A program made the position numbers and the translations under genes. Below are positions 960-51,878 of a DNA stretch of 64,000 nt, piece after piece. This DNA is from Flavobacteriales bacterium. GTDB lineage: Bacteria; Bacteroidota; Bacteroidia; Flavobacteriales_F; PHOS-HE28. Position 1 is the stretch's first letter; each line of letters opens with the position of its first letter. The stretch covers positions 1,745,964-1,809,963 of the forward strand of contig JAHCIA010000001.1 of the NCBI GenBank assembly GCA_026129465.1, read 5' to 3'. The notes beneath the pieces are model-generated. The model saw nothing but the letters and a program-made list of their open reading frames with translations. It did no database searches and was not told the DNA's origin.

Positions 960-2438
960 TCAGCCTCGACGCAGCACACGCGAGGCCACCTGGCCCAGTT
1001 CGGGGACCAGCCCCAGCACATGTACCACGGGCCAGTAGGCCAGGGCGATCAAGGCGCTGCGCAGGGCGATATCCACCAGGGGCTGGCCGGTGAGCGGTAT
1101 CCAGGGTAAGACCAGCGCGATGGCCGCGATGAGCAGGAGGGCCCCCACGGTGCGCAGGCCGAAAGGCCAGAGACCATAGCGCCAGCGCAACCAACCGGTG
1201 CGGAAGGCATTGACGAGAACAAGCGACAGCAGCGTGGCCCAGGCCGCGCCGATGATGCCCATGCTGCGCACGAGGAAGAAGTTCGCCACCGCGTTCAGCA
1301 CCAGCAAGGCGAAACTGGAGAGCGCATCGAGGCGGTAGGAGCGTGACATGGAAATGATGCCCATGTTGAGCCCCACCATGCTGTTGAGCAGATAGGCCAG
1401 GCCCACCACCCAGGCCACGCCCGCCGCCCCGGAATACTCGGCGGGCAGCAGCGTGAAGAGGTCGTCGATGCTCATCCACATGAGCAGGAAGAGGAAGCCG
1501 CTGACGACGGTCTGCACGAGTGAGGAGCGCACGTAGATCTTGCGCAATGCCGGCATGTCGCGGCGCTTCCAGGCGTCGGCCACGGCGGGCATGGCGGCCT
1601 GGTACAAAGCGCGGCCCGGTGCGGCGATCACCGATCCGAAGTAGAAGGCCACCGAGTAGTAGGCCACCTGCTTGAGACCTTCGCCCAGCAGGGCGCCGAT
1701 CATCAACTGGTCCATGTTGCCGAGCACGATGCCGGCCAGGCTCGCCGAGAGCGTGAAGCCGCTGTAGGTGGTCATGCTGCGGCGCAGGCGGCCCGGCAGC
1801 CAGCGTTCCTTCAGCCCGGGGGTGAAGTGCCCTGAGCGCCACAGATCGGCCACGAGCAGCAGCGTGCACAGCAGGAACACACCGGTGTACAGCGCCATGA
1901 AAACACCGAAGTCCATGGGGCGCCAGGCCTGATGGAGGATCAGCAGCATCTGCAGCAGGCGCAGCAGGAACTCGCGGATGAAGGTGGGCTGCACCGTTCG
2001 CCGCAAGGATCGGCTGTAGGCGCGCAGCAGGATGAAGAAGATCTCGCCGAAGACCAGCGGCAACAACAGCAAGCCATACCGGTCCCACAGGCCGGCGCGG
2101 TCATTGAAGATCTCCGTGAAGGTGCCGTGCAGCAGGGCCAGCACCAGCATGGTGGCCAGGCCGGTGGCCGTGCCGAAAAGCAGCAGCATGCCCAGCAGGC
2201 CGCGGTGCCGCCGCAACGGATCGCGGAAGTAGGGGAAGAATCGGATCACGGTGTTCTCCGCACCGAGTTGCGCCACCTGGGCCACAATGGTGACCATGGC
2301 CACCAGCAGCCGTGTCAGGCCGAACTGGTCCGGCTGTAGCACCTTGGGATAGAGCAGCACCACATTGACGAAGCCCAGACCGATGCCCATGTAGGTGAGC
2401 ACCGTATTGGTCATGGCCTGCCGGGCGATGGGACCCAT
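960..2438 (-). CDS. Wzx-like polysaccharide flippase (MATE/MVF-type, oligosaccharide flippase family)
   Basis: The 492-residue protein is almost entirely hydrophobic, with about 12-14 predicted membrane segments, and fits the PST/Wzx flippases that move lipid-linked glycans across the inner membrane. Recognisable pieces are the N-terminal GFVNVVLLYPKVLQPDQFGL and a mid-protein SASLAGIVLGNMDQLMIG, the usual flippase core motif. A longer reading from a TTG at 2447 exists; I chose the ATG at 2438. It lies 14 nt behind the glycosyltransferase gene and is the last gene of a leftward YfhO-GT4-flippase operon. A TACCTTGC box 4 nt before this ATG could also give it its own near-leaderless transcript. 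The exported glycan is unknown. Confidence 0.85.
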   Translation of the reverse strand: MGPIARQAMTNTVLTYMGIGLGFVNVVLLYPKVLQPDQFGLTRLLVAMVTIVAQVAQLGAENTVIRFFPYFRDPLRRHRGLLGMLLLFGTATGLATMLVLALLHGTFTEIFNDRAGLWDRYGLLLLPLVFGEIFFILLRAYSRSLRRTVQPTFIREFLLRLLQMLLILHQAWRPMDFGVFMALYTGVFLLCTLLLVADLWRSGHFTPGLKERWLPGRLRRSMTTYSGFTLSASLAGIVLGNMDQLMIGALLGEGLKQVAYYSVAFYFGSVIAAPGRALYQAAMPAVADAWKRRDMPALRKIYVRSSLVQTVVSGFLFLLMWMSIDDLFTLLPAEYSGAAGVAWVVGLAYLLNSMVGLNMGIISMSRSYRLDALSSFALLVLNAVANFFLVRSMGIIGAAWATLLSLVLVNAFRTGWLRWRYGLWPFGLRTVGALLLIAAIALVLPWIPLTGQPLVDIALRSALIALAYWPVVHVLGLVPELGQVASRVLRRG

Positions 2439-2442
2439 GTGC

Positions 2443-2450
2443 GGCAAGGT
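2443..2450 (-). promoter_or_regulatory. Putative -7 element (TACCTTGC) of the flippase gene
   Basis: Read on the minus strand, TACCTTGC lies 4 nt before the flippase ATG at 2438, inside the short gap after the glycosyltransferase stop. It matches the recurrent box of this genome except for the final base, so an internal promoter is possible but not certain. Confidence 0.35.
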
Positions 2451-2452
2451 AC

Positions 2453-3763
2453 TCAGGTGTCCGAAGCACTGTTGGCGATGAGTGCCGCGAGGCGCGCGGT
2501 CAGGGACTCACGCGTGTAGCGCCGGTGCGCATCGCCTTGCACGCGCAGGTCCTCTCCCGCCAAATGCCGTCGCAGCATTCCGGCAAGGTGCGCGTGCAGC
2601 TCGTCCTCCATGGTACGATCGAACATCCTGCCCGCGTCGCACTCCCGGATCACGGTGTCCACATCGCTCCCCACAGGACCGATGGCCACGATGGTCCTCC
2701 GCGACGCCAGGTACTCGAAGAGTTTGCCAGGCAGCACCTGTTCCACACCGGGCGCATCGGGCAGCACCAGAAGGAGCACGTGCGCGGCATGCATGGCGGA
2801 CAGCGCGGCGGCGTGGACCACCGGCGGAGACCAGGTACAGTTAACCCCTGCCGCCCGGGCCATCGCCTGGATGAGCGGATCGATCGCGCCCACGCCGTGG
2901 AAGGTGATACGTGCCTGTGGGCTTTCACGTGTCACTCGGCCCAAGGCTCTGAAAAAGACCGCTGGATCGTAGCTCGCCGCCATGGAGCCCACATAGGTGA
3001 TCCGGAATTCCCCCTCGGGTGGACCGGGCGCTGAGGTGGGCAGATCGGCCGCGTCGTACCCGTTGGGGACCACATGGATCCGTTCGCCCGCATCAGCGCC
3101 GTATCGTCCGGTCAATGTCCGCTTCAGCGAAGGCCCGGTGGTAAGCAGCACATCGGCGGTGCGCACCACGCGCTCTTCCCAGGCGGCATTGCGCCGAGCG
3201 GCCCAGGCGCCTTGCATAAGCTCGCGGGTGTACCACATGTCCGTCCAGGGATCGCGCAGATCGGCGATCCAGCGCAACTGAGGGAAGCGCTTCTTCAAGG
3301 CCAGGCCGATCAATTGCGCACTGTGCGGTGGTGACGAGATGACGACCGCGTCGAAGTGCCCTTGCCGCAACAGATCGGTGGCGGCGCGCACGGCATGGCG
3401 CACCCAGCCCCGCCGTGCGTCGGGGATGAAGAGATTGCCGCGCGACCAGCGCAGGCCACGCTTGAAGAGGCCGGGCGGTGGCTCACCGGCGAATCCCGCC
3501 CGGGGCACCACCTCACCGCCGAAGACACGCGCCAGGAAGCGCAGTGGCTCGAAGGAGCGTGTGCGCACCACTTCGATGTCATCCGGCACATCAGCGCTCA
3601 ACGAAGGGTCCAGCACCGGGTAGGCCGCGTGCTCCGGATCCACGGTGAGCACCGTGGGCCGCACACCGTGGCGCGAGAGGTACTTCACGAATTTCAGCGG
3701 ACGCTGCACCCCCGCTCCTCCGCTGGGCGGCCAGTAGTAGGTGATGATCAGCGCGCGTTTCAT
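2453..3763 (-). CDS. Glycosyltransferase family 4
   Basis: This 436-residue protein opens with the GT4 acceptor-domain signature ITYYWPPSGGAGVQRPLKF and has the donor-binding half after about residue 230 (ITYVGSMAASYDPAVFF, then PGKLFEYLASRRTIVAIG with the conserved glutamate region). It should transfer a sugar from a nucleotide donor in the cytoplasm. I start at the ATG at 3763 because it overlaps the YfhO stop by four bases (ATGA), the usual coupling, although the frame is open for 17 more codons upstream. Flanked by YfhO and a flippase, it likely takes part in surface glycan or glycolipid synthesis. Donor and acceptor cannot be told from sequence. Confidence 0.88.
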   Translation of the reverse strand: MKRALIITYYWPPSGGAGVQRPLKFVKYLSRHGVRPTVLTVDPEHAAYPVLDPSLSADVPDDIEVVRTRSFEPLRFLARVFGGEVVPRAGFAGEPPPGLFKRGLRWSRGNLFIPDARRGWVRHAVRAATDLLRQGHFDAVVISSPPHSAQLIGLALKKRFPQLRWIADLRDPWTDMWYTRELMQGAWAARRNAAWEERVVRTADVLLTTGPSLKRTLTGRYGADAGERIHVVPNGYDAADLPTSAPGPPEGEFRITYVGSMAASYDPAVFFRALGRVTRESPQARITFHGVGAIDPLIQAMARAAGVNCTWSPPVVHAAALSAMHAAHVLLLVLPDAPGVEQVLPGKLFEYLASRRTIVAIGPVGSDVDTVIRECDAGRMFDRTMEDELHAHLAGMLRRHLAGEDLRVQGDAHRRYTRESLTARLAALIANSASDT

Positions 3764-19789: not shown

Positions 19790-22309
19790 ATGCTGCGATC
19801 CACCACGTTTCTTCTGTTGTTCGCCACCACCACCATGCTTCCGGCCCAGCACTGGGTGGATCTGCTGATGGACGAGACGACCAACATCCATGATGTGAAG
19901 GCCGCCTTCGACACCGAGTGGGAAGGCCGCACCTATGTGCGCGGCAAGGGCTGGAAACAGTTCCAGCGCTGGCACTGGTTCATGGAGCAGCGCACCTGGC
20001 CCAGCGGCGAGCGGCCCGACCCTGCGATCCACCTGCAGGCCACACAGGAGGTGCGGCAGATGCACGCCCAACGTGGCGGCCTGCGAGACGGGGCCGAATG
20101 GCGCTCCTTGGGACCCACGCAATGGAACACCTTCTCCTACAACCCCGGCAACGGACGCGTGAACTGCGTGGCGCTCGACCCCCAGGACCCGGAGATCATC
20201 TATGCGGGCACCCCCAGTGGCGGTCTGTGGCGCTACATCCCCGGCACAGGGTGGGAGGCCCTCTTCACCGACCTGCCCTCCATGGGCGTTTCCGGCATCG
20301 TCATCCACCCGGACGAACCGCAGACCATCTTCATCGCCACCGGTGATGGCGACGGTGCCGACACTTACAGCGCCGGGGTGCTGAAGACCACCGATGGCGG
20401 CCAGACCTGGGAAAGCACCGGACTGGACTGGAACATCAACCAGACCCGCACCACGCGGGCCCTGCGCATGCGCCAGAACGACCCCGACGTGCTGTATTGC
20501 GCCGCCAGCAGCGGATTGTACAGCACCACCGATGGCGGCGAGAACTGGACCCAGCACAGTGGTGGCTCATTCCGCGATGTGGAATTCATGCCGGGGGACA
20601 CCACCATCGTGTACGCCTGCGGCACCTCATTCTACCGCAGCGAACCCGGTGGCGACAACTTCAGCAACGCGGGCATCACCGGCCTGCCTTCCCCCTCGCA
20701 GGTGGGTCGCATGGCCATCGCCGTCACACCCGCCGACCCCCTGATCGTGTACGCCCTGTGCAGCAACAACCAGAACGGTTTTCTCGGTCTCTACAGAAGC
20801 ACCGATGGCGGCCACACCTTCGAGACGCGATCCACTTCGCCGAACCTCTTCGGCTACAGCGAGGTGGGCGATGACCTGGGCGGACAGGCCTGGTACGACA
20901 TGGCCCTGGCCGTGGACACGGAGAACCCCGACCTCGTGTATGTGGGTGGCATCAACGTGTGGCGCAGCACCGATGGCGGCGCCAACTGGAACATCGTGTC
21001 CCACTGGGTCTACCCTTCCATGATCGGGTACACCCACGCGGACATCCATTCGCTGGATGTGCTGGACGGCAAGATCTGGTGCGGGTCCGACGGCGGGATC
21101 TTCGTCAGCGCCAACACCGGCAACAACTGGCAGAACCGAAGCTTCGGATTGGACATCACGCAATTCTACCGCATCGGCGGAAGCGCATCGGATGCCGGCC
21201 TGCTGCTGGGTGGCGCCCAGGACAACGGCACCAACCGTTTGAAGGACGGCCAATGGACGCACATCTTCGGCGCGGACGGCATGGAATGCGCGGTGGATCG
21301 TGCGAGCAACAGCATCCTCTACGGCGCATACCAGAACGGTGGTCTCCTGCGCTCCAACAACGAGGGTGTCAGCTGGACGGGCCTTACCGACAACATCGAC
21401 GACGAAGGCGCCTGGGTCACACCCTATGTGCTGCACCCCACCGATCCCACGGTGCTCGTGGCCGGCTTCCGCAACCTGTGGGTCACCGCCGACCGTGGCG
21501 ACAACTGGTACCAGACCACCTTCTGGCCCACGGGCGAATTCGTCCGTGTGATCGCCATCGCACCTTCCGATCCGGATGTGTGGTTCGCCGCACGCAACGA
21601 CCGGGTCATGCGCAGCATCGACGGCGGCTTCACCTGGAATAGCATCAAGCCCGGCCTGCCCAACCTCTCGCCCACTTCCATCGCCGTGGACCACGATGAT
21701 CCCCTGCATGTGTGGATCACCTTCAGCGGCCAGACCGGCGGACAGAAGGTCTATGAAAGCGTGAACGGTGGCAGCTCCTGGATCAACCGCAGCCTGGGCC
21801 TGCCCAACGTGCCGGCCAACAGCATCGTCACCCAGCCCGATTCGCCCAATGGCGTGTACCTCGGCACCGACATGGGCGTGTTCTACCGCGACGACTACAC
21901 CGAGGGTTGGGAACTCTACGGCAACGGACTGCCCAATGTGGTGGTGACCGAACTGGAGATCCACATGGGCAGCGGCACCTTGCGCGCGGGTACTTATGGG
22001 CGTGGCATCTGGGAAGCGGACCTCTACTTCTCGCCCTTCGCCAGCGTGGATGGGATCGCGATCACCGAAGGTCCGCTGGTCATGCCGGTCGACATGGAAG
22101 GCCGCTACATCATCCGCGCCGACGAACGCCTGGGCCGGCTGCTGGAGGTGCGTGTGTTCGATGCCGTGGGACGGGCGATCCGCCCCCGCATGGGCCAGCG
22201 CGACCTGCACCAGTTGGACCTGTCCGCACAGCCACCGGGCACCTACCTGGTGCACATCACCATGGAGAAGGGCATGTGGACGAGGCCCGTGGTGGCCAGG
22301 GTGTGGTGA
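19790..22309 (+). CDS. T9SS-secreted beta-propeller protein with Asp-box (BNR/sortilin-like) repeats
   Basis: An 839-residue secreted protein: signal peptide (about residues 1-20, ending MLPAQ), then a large beta-propeller region with many Asp-box repeats of the form STDGGxTW/NW (for example KTTDGGQTWES, YSTTDGGENWTQ, RSTDGGANWNI, RSIDGGFTWNS). This is the Vps10/sortilin- and exosialidase-like propeller fold, often binding or cleaving glycans or peptides; no catalytic set is assigned. The last about 80 residues form a type A T9SS sorting domain, ending LSAQPPGTYLVHI and a basic tail, which directs export across the outer membrane. It is divergent from porX, the T9SS regulator, which may control it. 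Confidence 0.9.
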   Translation: MLRSTTFLLLFATTTMLPAQHWVDLLMDETTNIHDVKAAFDTEWEGRTYVRGKGWKQFQRWHWFMEQRTWPSGERPDPAIHLQATQEVRQMHAQRGGLRDGAEWRSLGPTQWNTFSYNPGNGRVNCVALDPQDPEIIYAGTPSGGLWRYIPGTGWEALFTDLPSMGVSGIVIHPDEPQTIFIATGDGDGADTYSAGVLKTTDGGQTWESTGLDWNINQTRTTRALRMRQNDPDVLYCAASSGLYSTTDGGENWTQHSGGSFRDVEFMPGDTTIVYACGTSFYRSEPGGDNFSNAGITGLPSPSQVGRMAIAVTPADPLIVYALCSNNQNGFLGLYRSTDGGHTFETRSTSPNLFGYSEVGDDLGGQAWYDMALAVDTENPDLVYVGGINVWRSTDGGANWNIVSHWVYPSMIGYTHADIHSLDVLDGKIWCGSDGGIFVSANTGNNWQNRSFGLDITQFYRIGGSASDAGLLLGGAQDNGTNRLKDGQWTHIFGADGMECAVDRASNSILYGAYQNGGLLRSNNEGVSWTGLTDNIDDEGAWVTPYVLHPTDPTVLVAGFRNLWVTADRGDNWYQTTFWPTGEFVRVIAIAPSDPDVWFAARNDRVMRSIDGGFTWNSIKPGLPNLSPTSIAVDHDDPLHVWITFSGQTGGQKVYESVNGGSSWINRSLGLPNVPANSIVTQPDSPNGVYLGTDMGVFYRDDYTEGWELYGNGLPNVVVTELEIHMGSGTLRAGTYGRGIWEADLYFSPFASVDGIAITEGPLVMPVDMEGRYIIRADERLGRLLEVRVFDAVGRAIRPRMGQRDLHQLDLSAQPPGTYLVHITMEKGMWTRPVVARVW

Positions 22310-22363
22310 CAGGGTTGAAGATCGGAGCGCCGACGGGGCCGACAGGACCAGACAACGTCCAAC

Positions 22364-22371
22364 TACCTTCA
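22364..22371 (+). promoter_or_regulatory. Putative -7 element (TACCTTCA) of the HD-domain gene
   Basis: TACCTTCA ends 18 nt before the ATG at 22390, just after the T9SS cargo gene stop. It differs from the common box in its last base. Confidence 0.45.
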
Positions 22372-22389
22372 ACCTCCGTTGTCACCGGC

Positions 22390-40615: not shown

Positions 40616-40673
40616 CCCACGGGCGCATCATGATGCCCCCCAACCAACCCACAACAAACAACCTCCCCTTACC

Positions 40674-42089: not shown

Positions 42090-42115
42090 AGCACAAGCGA
42101 ATGGCGAATGGTCCA

Positions 42116-42154
42116 TGGTGAATGGGTCGCCCCTCCGGGCATTCCCATTCACCA
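42116..42154 (+). promoter_or_regulatory. Hairpin in the gap before yeeE
   Basis: TGGTGAATGGG (42116-42126) and CCCATTCACCA (42144-42154) form a perfect 11-bp stem with a 17-nt loop, between the CstB-like gene and the first YeeE half. It could be a partial terminator or an mRNA-stability element separating the two parts of the operon. Confidence 0.45.
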
Positions 42155-42188
42155 GTCACCTCCGACCATCCACCGATACCCTCACCCC

Positions 42189-42752
42189 ATGCTCGAAACC
42201 CTGAAACAACCCTGGTCGTGGTATGTGGCCGGTACGCTCATCGGCCTCACCGTGCCCTTCCTGTTGCTCGTGGGCAACAAGACCTTCGGCATCAGCAGTT
42301 CGCTGCGCCACCTCTGTGCCGCCTGCATGCCGGGCGACATCAAGTTCTTCAAGTACGACTGGAAGAAAGAGGCGTGGAACCTCTTCTTCGTGGGCGGTAT
42401 CGCCGTGGGCGCCTTCCTCGCCGCCACCTTTCTGAGCGACCCCAACCCCATCGTGCTCGCTGACCCCACGCAGCAATACCTCGCCAGCAAAGGCATCACG
42501 GACACCAGCCATCTGTTGCCCGCCGAGATCTTCAGCTGGGAGCAATTGTTCACCTTGCGCGGCCTGATCTTCTTCGTGATCGGCGGCTTCATGGTGGGCT
42601 TCGGCACACGCTACGCCGGGGGCTGCACCAGTGGCCACGCCATCATGGGCCTCAGCAGCCTGCAGTGGCCCAGCCTCATCGCCACCGTGATGTTCATGGT
42701 CGGAGGCATCATCATGACCTGGTTCATCCTCCCAACCCTCCTCACCCTCTGA
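42189..42752 (+). CDS. YeeE/YedE thiosulfate transporter, N-terminal half protein
   Basis: A 187-residue membrane protein with about four to five helices. The pore motif GGFMVGFGTRYAGGCTSGHAIMGLSSLQW (Cys in GGCTSGH) is the hallmark of YeeE/YedE (TsuA), which passes thiosulfate by relaying it along conserved cysteines; another Cys pair occurs in LCAACMPG. In Bacteroidota the transporter is split into two half-size proteins and this is the first. Its partner follows 5 nt downstream. The ATG at 42189 fits the family start; the 27 upstream codons overlap the hairpin. Confidence 0.9.
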   Translation: MLETLKQPWSWYVAGTLIGLTVPFLLLVGNKTFGISSSLRHLCAACMPGDIKFFKYDWKKEAWNLFFVGGIAVGAFLAATFLSDPNPIVLADPTQQYLASKGITDTSHLLPAEIFSWEQLFTLRGLIFFVIGGFMVGFGTRYAGGCTSGHAIMGLSSLQWPSLIATVMFMVGGIIMTWFILPTLLTL

Positions 42753-42757
42753 TCGCC

Positions 42758-43276
42758 ATGGAAAAGATCGTCAACAATATCCCCGCGGTGGAAACGAACA
42801 CCGACTTCGAGGTGCGTTCGCTGGACACCATGTGCGTGAATGAGAGCCAGGTGGAGCGTCCCTGGTGGGACAACCTGAAATACAGTGCTTGGGGCGTGCT
42901 CTTCGGTATCGTCTTCTTCAAGGCGGAGATCATCAGCTGGTTCCGCATCCAGGAGATGTTCCGCTTCGAGAGCTTCCACATGTACGGCGTGATCGGCACC
43001 GCCGTGGTGGTGGGCCTCATCAGCGTACAGCTCATCAAGCGCTTCAACATCAAGACCCTGCAAGGAGAGACCGTGGTCATCCCCAACAAGACCTTCAACA
43101 AGGGCCAGATCTATGGCGGCCTGCTGTTCGGTCTGGGCTGGGCCATCACCGGTGCCTGTCCGGGTCCGCTCTTCGCGCAGATAGGTGCGGGCTACTCGGT
43201 CATCGTCGTCACCTTCCTCAGCGCCTGGCTGGGCACTTACGTGTATGGCGTCTTCCGCGAGAAGCTGCCGCACTGA
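42758..43276 (+). CDS. YeeE/YedE-family second half protein (DUF6691-like)
   Basis: A 172-residue membrane protein, the expected partner of the preceding gene. It has an about 35-residue cytoplasmic N-terminal extension, three to four helices and the matching pore motif GLLFGLGWAITGACPGPLFAQIGAG, with Cys in ACPGP. Together the two halves supply the duplicated cysteine motifs of the single-chain thiosulfate transporter TsuA. Substrate thiosulfate is inferred from the family and from the surrounding TsdA and SoxB genes. The start at 42758 is 5 nt after the first half. Confidence 0.88.
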   Translation: MEKIVNNIPAVETNTDFEVRSLDTMCVNESQVERPWWDNLKYSAWGVLFGIVFFKAEIISWFRIQEMFRFESFHMYGVIGTAVVVGLISVQLIKRFNIKTLQGETVVIPNKTFNKGQIYGGLLFGLGWAITGACPGPLFAQIGAGYSVIVVTFLSAWLGTYVYGVFREKLPH

Positions 43277-43280
43277 ATGC

Positions 43281-43399
43281 GGCGAGAATTGTGAAAGAGG
43301 AGAGAATGGCGAGAAGGAACGGCGCTGTGCACCACCTCACCATCAGGACCACCTTCACTGCTTTCACCGCTTTCTCCACCCTCACCATTCTCACCGCCG
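43281..43399. repeat. Inverted pair of 9-bp minisatellite arrays before the cytochrome gene
   Basis: From 43281 four purine-rich 9-mers occur in a row (GGCGAGAAT, TGTGAAAGA, GGAGAGAAT, GGCGAGAAG). From 43337 seven pyrimidine-rich 9-mers run to the start codon (among them TCACTGCTT, TCACCGCTT, TCACCATTC). The second array is the reverse complement type of the first, so the mRNA could fold into a long imperfect stem directly before the ATG at 43400. Confidence 0.7.
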
Positions 43400-44503
43400 A
43401 TGCTCATCCCGATCCTCATCCTGCTCACCACCCTGCTGGTGCTGGTGGTGATGTACGTGTTGGATGACGCCGTACGCGTGCTGAACGCAAGGGCCGGTCT
43501 TCCGCCAGGCGGCAGCATGAGCTGGAGCAAGCGCATCGTATGGATCATTCTGGCAGTGGTCTTCGCACAGCTCTTCGTCCCAAAAGCGTGGCTCGAACCG
43601 CGCCCACCACAGGTGGCCACCTACGGTCCCGACAGCCTGTGGACCGGTGCGGATACCACGCGGTTGATATACCTGCCGAAGGAACGACGTGACCTGGTGC
43701 GGTACGGCCGCGAGCTCATCGCCAACACCGCACATTACCTCGGACCGAACGGCATGGTGATGCGGAACACCAACGCGCTCAATTGCCAGAACTGCCACTT
43801 GGACGCGGGTACCAAGCCCTGGGGCAACAACTACGGCGCGGTGTGGAGCACATACCCGAAGTTCCGCGCCCGCAGCGGCACACAGGAGACCGTGGCGAAG
43901 CGAATCAATGATTGTGTGGAGCGCAGCCTGAACGGCACGGCGCTGGACACCAACGGCCGTGAGATGCGCGCCATGCTCGCCTACATGGAATGGCTGGGCA
44001 GCGGGATAGAAAAGGGCTACAAGCCCAAGGGCAGCGGCATTGTGGAAATCGCCTTCATGGATCGCGCCGCCGACCCCGTGAACGGAGCGGAGATCTACAC
44101 CGCGAAGTGCGAAAGCTGCCACGGTGCCGATGGCCTTGGCCAGTTGAAGGCCGATGGCCGCACCCACCAGTACCCGCCGCTTTGGGGCGAAGGCAGCTAC
44201 AACGATGGTGCGGGCCTCTTCCGCATGAGCCGTTTCGCTGGCTACGTGAAGACCAACATGCCACAAGGTGTGACATGGGAATACCCGCAATTGAGCGATG
44301 AGGAAGCGTGGGACGTGGCAGCCTACGTGAACTCGCAACGCCGTCCCGTGATGGACATCACGGGCGACTGGCCGGACATCGCCGCCAAGCCGATGGACCA
44401 CCCCTTCGGACCTTTCACCGATACCTTCCCGGAGTCGCAACACAAGTACGGACCATTCGGACCGATCGCAGAATTCAAGAAGAAACCCGCGGCCACGCCA
44501 TAA
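43400..44503 (+). CDS. tsdA: TsdA-like dihaem cytochrome c (thiosulfate dehydrogenase) with N-terminal membrane hairpin
   Basis: A 367-residue dihaem cytochrome. Haem 1 binds at CQNCH (Cys129, Cys132, His133), haem 2 at CESCH (Cys237, Cys240, His241) with probable axial Met287 in TNMPQG. Between them is RINDCVERSLNGTAL, where Cys172 matches the unusual cysteine axial ligand of TsdA, and RYGRELIANTAHYLGPNG and YPKFRARSG are also TsdA-like. TsdA joins two thiosulfates to tetrathionate or does the reverse. Instead of a cleaved signal peptide there are two membrane helices (about residues 2-20 and 46-62), so the catalytic part is tethered to the outer face of the inner membrane. The stop overlaps the SoxB start (TAATG). 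Confidence 0.8.
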   Translation: MLIPILILLTTLLVLVVMYVLDDAVRVLNARAGLPPGGSMSWSKRIVWIILAVVFAQLFVPKAWLEPRPPQVATYGPDSLWTGADTTRLIYLPKERRDLVRYGRELIANTAHYLGPNGMVMRNTNALNCQNCHLDAGTKPWGNNYGAVWSTYPKFRARSGTQETVAKRINDCVERSLNGTALDTNGREMRAMLAYMEWLGSGIEKGYKPKGSGIVEIAFMDRAADPVNGAEIYTAKCESCHGADGLGQLKADGRTHQYPPLWGEGSYNDGAGLFRMSRFAGYVKTNMPQGVTWEYPQLSDEEAWDVAAYVNSQRRPVMDITGDWPDIAAKPMDHPFGPFTDTFPESQHKYGPFGPIAEFKKKPAATP

Positions 44504-46314
44504 TGGGGTCGACCAATCGAATCACCATGAGCAAGATCCACCACCCACCCGGCTGCACCTGCGGCGCACACGATGAGAAGGAATACGGTGTAAGCCGAAG
44601 GCAGGCGTTGAAGTCGCTGGGTGCCCTGGGCGCCGGCCTCACGCTGGGGCCCACGGTGGCATTGGGCTCCATGGGCGATGCGCAACGGCGGGAGGAACTG
44701 ATCGGCAGCCGCGCGCTACAGAGCGGCAAGGCAGGCAAGTTCAGCATCCTCTTCACCAGCGATATCCACTCGCAGTTACACACCCACGACGAGTTCTTCC
44801 TGGAGAACGGAAAACCGGTCTACAAGAAGCGCGGCGGCTACGGGGTGCTGAAGACGATGGTGGATACCCTGCGCAACGAGGACCCTGCCAACACCATCGT
44901 GATCGATGGTGGCGACTGCTTCCAGGGCGGTGGGGTGGCGGCCAAAAGCGAAGGGCGCGCCATCGTGCCGCTGATGAACCGCGTGGGCTATGACCTATTG
45001 CTGCCCGGCAACTGGGAGGTGGTGTACGGCAAGGACAACATGCTGAAGGACCTCGGCGGCTACAAGGGCGCGAAGATCTGCGCCAACATGTGGCACGAGC
45101 CCCTGGCCGACTATTGCGGCGACATGGTGGACCCCACCGCCGACATGGCCGGCGAGATGATCTTCCAACCCTACTGGACCAAGGTGGTGGCCGGAGTCAA
45201 GATCGGCTTCATCGGTTACAACGATCCGCTCACGCCCAAGCGCCAATCACCGGCTTACAGCTGCGGCATCAAGTTCACCAAGCCGGAGCAGAACGTGGCG
45301 CGCTACATCCGCATCCTGCGCGACTACGAGCAGTGCGCCATGGTATTCCTGGTCACGCACATGGGCCTTGCCCAGCAGGTGGACCTTGCCAACAAACCCG
45401 AAGTGGAGGGCGTGGACCTGATCCTCGGCGCCGACACCCACGAACGTGTGCGCAAGCCCATCGAAGCGAAATACAGCAAGGTGGTGGAGCCCGGTGCGTT
45501 CGGATCCTTCCTGGCCCGCCTAGATGTGGTGGTGGAGAACGGCGAGGTGAAAGACAGCCACTACGAACTGTTGGACGTGGACCCCGAGAAGTATCCGGCC
45601 AACAAGGAAATGCTCCAGCTCGTGGACGAGGTGAGCGCACCCTACCAGGAAGAACTTTCCAAAGTGGTGGGCAGCACCAAGAACACGCTGGTGCGCTACT
45701 ACGTGATCGAGAACCCGATGGACAACCTGATCACGGACGCCATCATGTGGAAGCTGAAGCCCGATGTGGCCATCAGCAACGGTTTCCGTTTCTGTCCGCC
45801 GATCGTGGCCGATGGCAAGACACCCACGCCGATCACCAACGACCACATCTGGAGCATGATCCCCGTGGACAGTGCCGCCAAGTACGGTGAAGCCAGCGGC
45901 GAACAGCTTTGGAACTGGCTGGAGAAGGAACTGCACAACGTGTTCGCCAAGGATCCCGCCAAGCGCTTCGGCGGTTGGGTGGTGCGCTTCAAGGGCATGA
46001 CGGCCAAGTTCACCATGCACAATGAACTGGGCAAGCGCGTGAACTGGATCAAGATCGGTGGCAAGCCCATCGACCGGAACAAGACCTACCTGGTGGCCGC
46101 CTGCGAACGCGAGGGCGACCCAGAGGATACCCTTTGCCGCTTGGAGAAGGTGAAAAACCCGCGCCTGGCAGGCGTCACCATGCACACCATCCTGCGCGAG
46201 TACTTCGGCAAGTTCAGCCCTGTGGCACCGAAGGTGGAGGGCCGCATCACCGCCACCGATGCGCCGCAGGATGTGCTGAGCCAGTTGGAGGGGTATGATT
46301 ACGAGTTCCGTTGA
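44503..46314 (+). CDS. soxB: SoxB thiosulfohydrolase
   Basis: A 603-residue SoxB with a twin-arginine-type signal (SRRQALKSLGALGAGLTLGP, Arg32-Arg33). The metallophosphoesterase domain has LFTSDIHSQLH (Asp87, His89), IVIDGGDCFQGGG, LLPGNWEVVYGKD and LVTHMGLAQQVD; a 5'-nucleotidase C-terminal domain follows (NPMDNLITDAIMWKLKPDVA). SoxB uses two manganese ions to cut sulfate from thiosulfonate on the carrier SoxY. No soxYZ, soxXA or soxCD is in the window, so the carrier must be elsewhere or replaced. I start at 44503, which shares a base with the tsdA stop (TAATG); the ATG at 44527 (MSKIHHPPG) is an alternative. Confidence 0.88.
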   Translation: MGSTNRITMSKIHHPPGCTCGAHDEKEYGVSRRQALKSLGALGAGLTLGPTVALGSMGDAQRREELIGSRALQSGKAGKFSILFTSDIHSQLHTHDEFFLENGKPVYKKRGGYGVLKTMVDTLRNEDPANTIVIDGGDCFQGGGVAAKSEGRAIVPLMNRVGYDLLLPGNWEVVYGKDNMLKDLGGYKGAKICANMWHEPLADYCGDMVDPTADMAGEMIFQPYWTKVVAGVKIGFIGYNDPLTPKRQSPAYSCGIKFTKPEQNVARYIRILRDYEQCAMVFLVTHMGLAQQVDLANKPEVEGVDLILGADTHERVRKPIEAKYSKVVEPGAFGSFLARLDVVVENGEVKDSHYELLDVDPEKYPANKEMLQLVDEVSAPYQEELSKVVGSTKNTLVRYYVIENPMDNLITDAIMWKLKPDVAISNGFRFCPPIVADGKTPTPITNDHIWSMIPVDSAAKYGEASGEQLWNWLEKELHNVFAKDPAKRFGGWVVRFKGMTAKFTMHNELGKRVNWIKIGGKPIDRNKTYLVAACEREGDPEDTLCRLEKVKNPRLAGVTMHTILREYFGKFSPVAPKVEGRITATDAPQDVLSQLEGYDYEFR

Positions 46315-51812: not shown

Positions 51813-51878
51813 GGATCCAGTTGTCAGTTGTTGGTTGTCCGTCGCCATGGTCGGCAGCATGACGATCGACAACCCGTT

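Follow-up and report, generated by a model that had tools for sequence, protein, structure and literature searches.

The gap between the stop codon of a YeeE-like gene and the start codon of a TsdA-like cytochrome gene (ATG at 43400) is 123 bp long and is filled by a palindromic insert made of short repeats. The gene that follows the TsdA-like gene is presumably SoxB. The coordinates of these genes, of the parts of the insert, and of two further repeat arrays in the window, which is the whole stretch of 64,000 nucleotides analysed, are given in Table 1.

Table 1. Genes and repeat features in the window
Feature	Coordinates	Strand	Evidence
Second facing array, same gene cluster, 7-bp GAATGGT / ATTCACC units	42090..42188	+	inverted p 0.003, direct p 0.05
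Upstream gene, Sulf_transp / DUF6691 (YeeE-like)	42758..43276	+	domain matches
Whole insert, palindromic facing array, from YeeE-like stop to TsdA-like ATG	43277..43399	+	fold z -3.95
Left purine-rich arm, four 9-mers of GGCGAGAAT type	43281..43316	+	direct reading; pairing with right arm
Loop with two weak right-type units	43317..43350	+	direct reading
Right pyrimidine-rich arm, five 9-mers	43351..43395	+	80% to consensus; lag-9 identity p 0.0005
Downstream gene, SoxA-TsdA cytochrome c domain and cbb3-type cytochrome domain (TsdA-like)	43400..44503	+	
Next gene, metallophosphatase and 5'-nucleotidase C domain (SoxB-like)	44527..46314	+	
TTGTC-type facing array in another gap	51813..51878	-	direct p 0.056, inverted p 0.023

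The initial annotation had described four purine-rich 9-mers followed by seven pyrimidine-rich 9-mers directly before the ATG, and arrays of this kind do lie there. Five of the seven right-hand units are clear; read as reverse complements they are GGTGAGAAT, GGTGAGGGT, GGAGAAAGC, GGTGAAAGC, and AGTGAAGGT, with GGTGAAAGT as the consensus. The lag-9 identity of this arm was 0.59 compared with 0.34 in shuffled sequences, and its significance changed only to p 0.001 when the choice of period was allowed for. The other two right-hand units, CACCTCACC at 43333-43341 and a poor unit at 43342-43350, are weak and lie in the loop. The four units of the left block (GGCGAGAAT, TGTGAAAGA, GGAGAGAAT, and GGCGAGAAG) are purine-rich and complementary to the right arm as had been stated, but the left half alone showed no significant 9-periodicity (lag-9 identity 0.40 compared with 0.31 in shuffled sequences, p 0.15). 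No other stretch of the 64-kb window has as strong a 9-bp periodicity, although TRF detected only 43354-43374 of the array. There were 15 direct 6-mer repeats where shuffles gave 1.5 (p 0.0005), and 6 inverted ones where shuffles likewise gave 1.5 (p 0.02). The suggestion that the two arms are reverse-complement types able to pair was borne out by the predicted fold, of which the MFE was -43.5 compared with -29.6 for shuffled sequences (0/300 shuffles as good); the fold of a longer stretch around the gap gave a z of -3.21.

A long hairpin between co-directional genes might be taken for an intrinsic terminator or attenuator separating YeeE from TsdA, but this is very improbable, since 42700-43500 contained 0 terminator-like sites and the stem is not followed by a T run; no promoter was found in the same interval. 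The search of Rfam gave nothing above the curated threshold, and the one match up to E 1 was isrA, which scored 22.7 bits where the gathering score is 51. Neither GTAG nor CGTC, nor their complements, occur in 43277-43399, which sets the insert apart from REP elements and tagged palindromes. A full-length DNA search of its own genome found no second copy of the whole insert, the next best match being 27 bp at 89%. The doubled consensus 9-mer had 0 exact matches in the same genome, an exact search being too strict for degenerate units.

The YeeE-TsdA gap was 3-39 bp long and without an insert in 17 other loci, which comprised 11 from sister genomes and six named records, with the start codon a few bases off in one, which has no bearing on the comparison. 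The only insert-bearing relative was Flavobacteriales ACE_BAC31 (locus L049 of genome G039, JAHBUK010000003.1). Its insert is 124 bp long, folds with a z of -5.19, and has a right arm with a 9-bp period. The flanks of the two inserts (300 bp on each side) are 90% and 83% identical, and the inserts themselves align no better than half-wise shuffles (115/1000 as good). Thus, the layout, length, and period persist between the two inserts while the units differ. Base-by-base homology of the inserts, which full shuffles had suggested, was not upheld by the half-wise shuffles and was rejected. The insert of ~120 bp may have been rewritten since its arrival in these genomes or may have been acquired twice; gain and rewriting at this gap rest on one comparison, because only two genomes carry the insert. 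When the 9-mer family of this gap was searched for as GGTGARNNN three times with one mismatch tolerated, 22 of the 23 genus genomes had matches, as did 2 of the 16 other genomes; some of these matches are ordinary coding repeats.

The initial annotation had further proposed that slippage varies the unit number and thereby tunes the expression of TsdA and SoxB. Tandem 9-mers immediately 5' of an ATG are in line with such a contingency locus. However, strand slippage favours uniform units, and the units here are degenerate, their 80% identity to the consensus falling short of the near-identical units of phase-variable simple sequence repeats. Moreover, the lengths in the two species are nearly the same (123 and 124 bp), the insert is absent from the 17 other loci, and similar arrays stand beside unrelated genes and within genes. 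The arrays are real and the switch is unlikely; a contingency locus at this site seems scarcely credible.

The insert is probably one member of a genus-wide class, for which we use the name facing arrays. In these, degenerate units of 7-10 bp form an array that is followed by a short loop and then by a like array in inverted orientation. We scanned 864 kb from this genome, 400 kb from each of G039 and G010, and 326 kb from 16 same-class genomes, with genes called by a home-made hexamer caller instead of a standard program, and scored gaps of 40-400 bp for 6-mers in both orientations against 300 shuffles (Q). Gaps with p<=0.01 for Q and Q>=2 amounted to 22/363 here, 24/187 in G039, 8/177 in G010, and 3/130 in the outgroups, in a mixed list of ordinary perfect hairpins and many facing arrays. 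The TsdA gap lies outside the 22 (Q = 1, p 0.04); its D and I scores were significant. The units listed for facing arrays include TTGTCNG, GAGTGGC, GAATGGT, GCTGGCT, CAAGTGA, CATGTGCC, ACACGGATGA, and GGAGGTGAA-like 9-mers, and TTGTCAG was the commonest. Related but non-identical facing arrays thus occur in intergenic regions and genes, here and in sister genomes, which comes close to the random spread of identical arrays through the genome that the initial annotation had named as a refutation of its own proposal. A preference of the arrays for co-directional gaps was considered and rejected (37/54 compared with 498/727 in the background).

TTGTC arrays were found in facing order in 14/39 genomes and in diverging order in 0/39. 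When outgroup rows and rows between the two periodicity cut-offs were set aside, the left arm was the G-rich one in 29 of 33 tandem hairpins (three opposite, one neutral), compared with 5 of 13 non-tandem hairpins. A class-wide polarity of this kind was nevertheless rejected, since the CAAGCC/GAGCC families in the linkers of an E1 dehydrogenase (G005) and a mutase (G002, G018) break it; polarity is therefore a property of individual families, not of the class as a whole. The occurrence of TTGTC arrays in 87/296 genomes of the phylum was mostly at the level of a reversed-pattern control and was not taken as evidence of spread. One intergenic TTGTC array is kept at the same gap in eight species (alignment A1: L236, L253, L266, L267, L268, L269, L270, and L271) with a nearly constant unit number, unlike the fast-changing arrays. 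The 42090-42188 array, which lies in the rhodanese/YeeE gap, is kept in G039 over 83/101 columns and is also present in G010 (L208). Together, the kept TTGTC element and the 42090-42188 array kept in G039 hint at constraint at some sites.

Facing arrays also occur within genes. Eight distinct in-frame TTGTC arrays were found within genes of this genome, one of them in a doubtful ORF, and their hosts include methylmalonyl-CoA mutase (two inserts), an E1 dehydrogenase, and a multidomain acyltransferase/aminotransferase protein. The E1 linker, which was read in 27 of the 30 loci of the set (L272-L301), carries TTGTC arrays here, CTGGCTA arrays in G016, and CAAGCC arrays in G005, and no significant repeats were present in 6/6 outgroup linkers read. 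The mutase set comprised L302-L327, with G019 and G021 left out at site 1 and G009 at site 2. At site 2, a single codon position, an in-frame insert was present in 13/16 genus members and 0/9 outgroups, and inverted repeats were significant in 13/13 inserts (p 0.003-0.04) and in 0/12 empty sites. Repeat families of the mutase were named by eye and the grouping was tested by pairwise scores, which divided the 13 site-2 inserts into seven groups with undetectable similarity between groups. A quick tree was built from the remainder of the protein, with 11/23 inner branches drawn open and long outgroup branches; on it, the site-2 states need 10 changes (minimum 7), and members of the GTCCGAT group fall in four separate places. 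Thus, the site persists and its array changes, either through exchange or through gene transfer from one species to another. As a separate observation, a CATGTG-type facing array was seen at L172:2842-2992, within the gene at 1417-3208.

A classical mobile palindromic element (a MITE or one like the Rickettsia palindromic elements) that a transposase moves and whose repeats are only a by-product of its ends would account for an insert where relatives have a short gap and for the in-frame inserts within genes, and four matches to Y1 transposases are present in the genome. We regard this explanation as unlikely, because the whole TsdA-gap insert is single-copy, the inserts at one site form unrelated groups, and the Y1 transposases showed no link to the arrays.

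A further explanation is that the hairpin acts in the mRNA on translation or transcript stability; the purine-rich and pyrimidine-rich arms would pair to within 2 nt of the TsdA AUG and either uncouple TsdA from YeeE or slow its translation. The strong fold beside the start codon in both insert-bearing species and the retention of the hairpin despite differing units are consistent with this. However, selection on RNA predicts that G-U mismatches between the arms exceed A-C mismatches on the transcribed strand, and no such excess was seen in the co-directional tandem elements (22 versus 28, leaving out hairpins under 14 pairs) or in the TsdA element (2 versus 5). A covariation check of the eight-species TTGTC element likewise found 0 pairs changed on both sides. 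The lack of a G-U excess and of double-changed pairs speaks against RNA-level selection of the class. Since, in addition, the class is found in all gene orientations and within genes and 17 other loci have no insert, a dedicated translational element at TsdA is doubtful. These counts are compatible with a side effect on translation, and an effect of the insert on tsdA expression is possible: although a dedicated switch for TsdA/SoxB is improbable, the hairpin ends 2 nt upstream of the ATG and may incidentally reduce translation.

We give roughly even odds (probability of about 0.5) to the reading that this genus carries self-renewing palindromic cassettes of facing arrays. The cassettes would comprise many unit families, with polarity specific to the family, and would occupy fixed, tolerant sites in gaps and enzymes, where one family would repeatedly give way to an unrelated one at exactly the same base position. 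Their production and persistence would depend on a template-switching activity or on a transposase as yet unknown, and the TsdA-gap repeat would be one of them. In the explanation that we favour as probable, palindromic inserts lodge at tolerant places, namely gaps between genes and linkers within enzymes. The existence of the class throughout the genus, its presence or absence at orthologous sites, and the occupation of one coding site by unrelated arrays in different species are observed; the mechanism is proposed. Replication slippage would grow and homogenise the arms, and one arm would be recopied from the other via template switching, so that the hairpin lasts while the units get rewritten. 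Template switching between inverted repeats makes and mends stems (PMC8794818) and homogenises inverted-repeat arms within genes (PMC8604942), as would be the case here, coding DNA included; the published cases are eukaryotic or concern RNA genes, whereas here the process is one that we infer. Slippage and template switching alone do not explain the swap to unrelated unit families; a swap of this kind may depend on recombination among dispersed arrays, or on a mobilising enzyme as yet unknown. The strict polarity of the TTGTC arrays stands unexplained by the proposed mechanism.

The short tandem heptamer repeats of filamentous cyanobacteria, which we take to be those abbreviated STRR, a name that reportedly goes back to older work on Calothrix, have a period of 7 bp, as do other facing arrays; the TsdA-gap array has a period of 9 bp and its unit differs from TTGTCAG. 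The TTGTCAG unit is shared with the cyanobacterial heptamers, of which ttgtcagttgtcagttgtca in gaps of Nostoc PCC 7120 is an example; these are listed without a hairpin in PMC2408588, whereas the TTGTC arrays here are strictly facing pairs. The degenerate heptanucleotide hairpin P6b of the Nostoc tRNA-Leu intron resembles the facing arrays in that short repeats on both sides pair and vary in copy number, but P6b has one fixed intron position and a 7-bp unit (PMC3488679), while facing arrays have many positions and units. Two other heptamer families are also similar. TAACTGA repeats of Beggiatoaceae, cyanobacteria, and some Bacteroidetes form intergenic arrays close upstream of start codons and are missing from the corresponding gaps of close relatives, as here, but they are direct repeats of one unit with no predicted fold (PMC4679880), and not inverted array pairs. 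GGGAATC heptamers of Xanthomonas and Nostoc form intergenic arrays, some inverted, that vary in length and sequence between close relatives at the same gaps; they are one G-rich unit family, studied as G-quadruplexes (PMC4692102), whereas many unit families occur here.

Rickettsia palindromic elements (RPE) are likewise palindromic inserts of ~100-150 bp in gaps and in frame in conserved protein genes, and their copies share a family sequence (PMC2229807 and PMC3733652), whereas the units of facing arrays differ by site and unrelated families replace each other at one site. The TsdA-gap insert resembles RPE in size and palindromic nature (123 bp, z -3.95, inverted p 0.02), but it has no second copy with shared sequence and is intergenic, the in-frame position being seen in other members of its class. 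The TsdA-gap insert thus works like the P6b hairpin, and the class behaves in genes like RPE; it is a member of neither, because its unit is 9 bp and the copies have no common sequence. The literature searched, the scope of which excluded subscription papers and preprints, yielded no account of facing arrays being exchanged at fixed sites.

Alone, the TsdA-gap feature is one more repeat hairpin; as an entry to a site-swapping, genus-wide class it is worth follow-up. If the proposed reading is true, the genus offers a directly testable natural system for the origin and persistence of palindromes, in which sister species with unrelated arrays at one coding position would make birth, exchange, and loss readable from strain sequences. 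It would also mean that short peptides are swapped in and out of metabolic enzymes, and would caution against taking each leader hairpin in these genomes as a regulator.

Presence and absence of arrays were also seen at other orthologous gaps. Two gaps that are short here bear arrays in G039 (58 versus 200 bp and 36 versus 191 bp). The 58-bp gap at 40616-40673 of the window, before a rhodanese/metallo-beta-lactamase-like gene, is plain, and its counterpart of 200 bp in G039 is a GAATGG facing array. The gap of G039 orthologous to 22309-22389 of the window, which is only 80 bp here, contains a 17-bp tandem repeat of GTTCGACTCCGCTCAGC type beside GATGTGGA units. Another gap of G039 (L168:13426-13795) contains a long tandem array of CTCAACC-type units.
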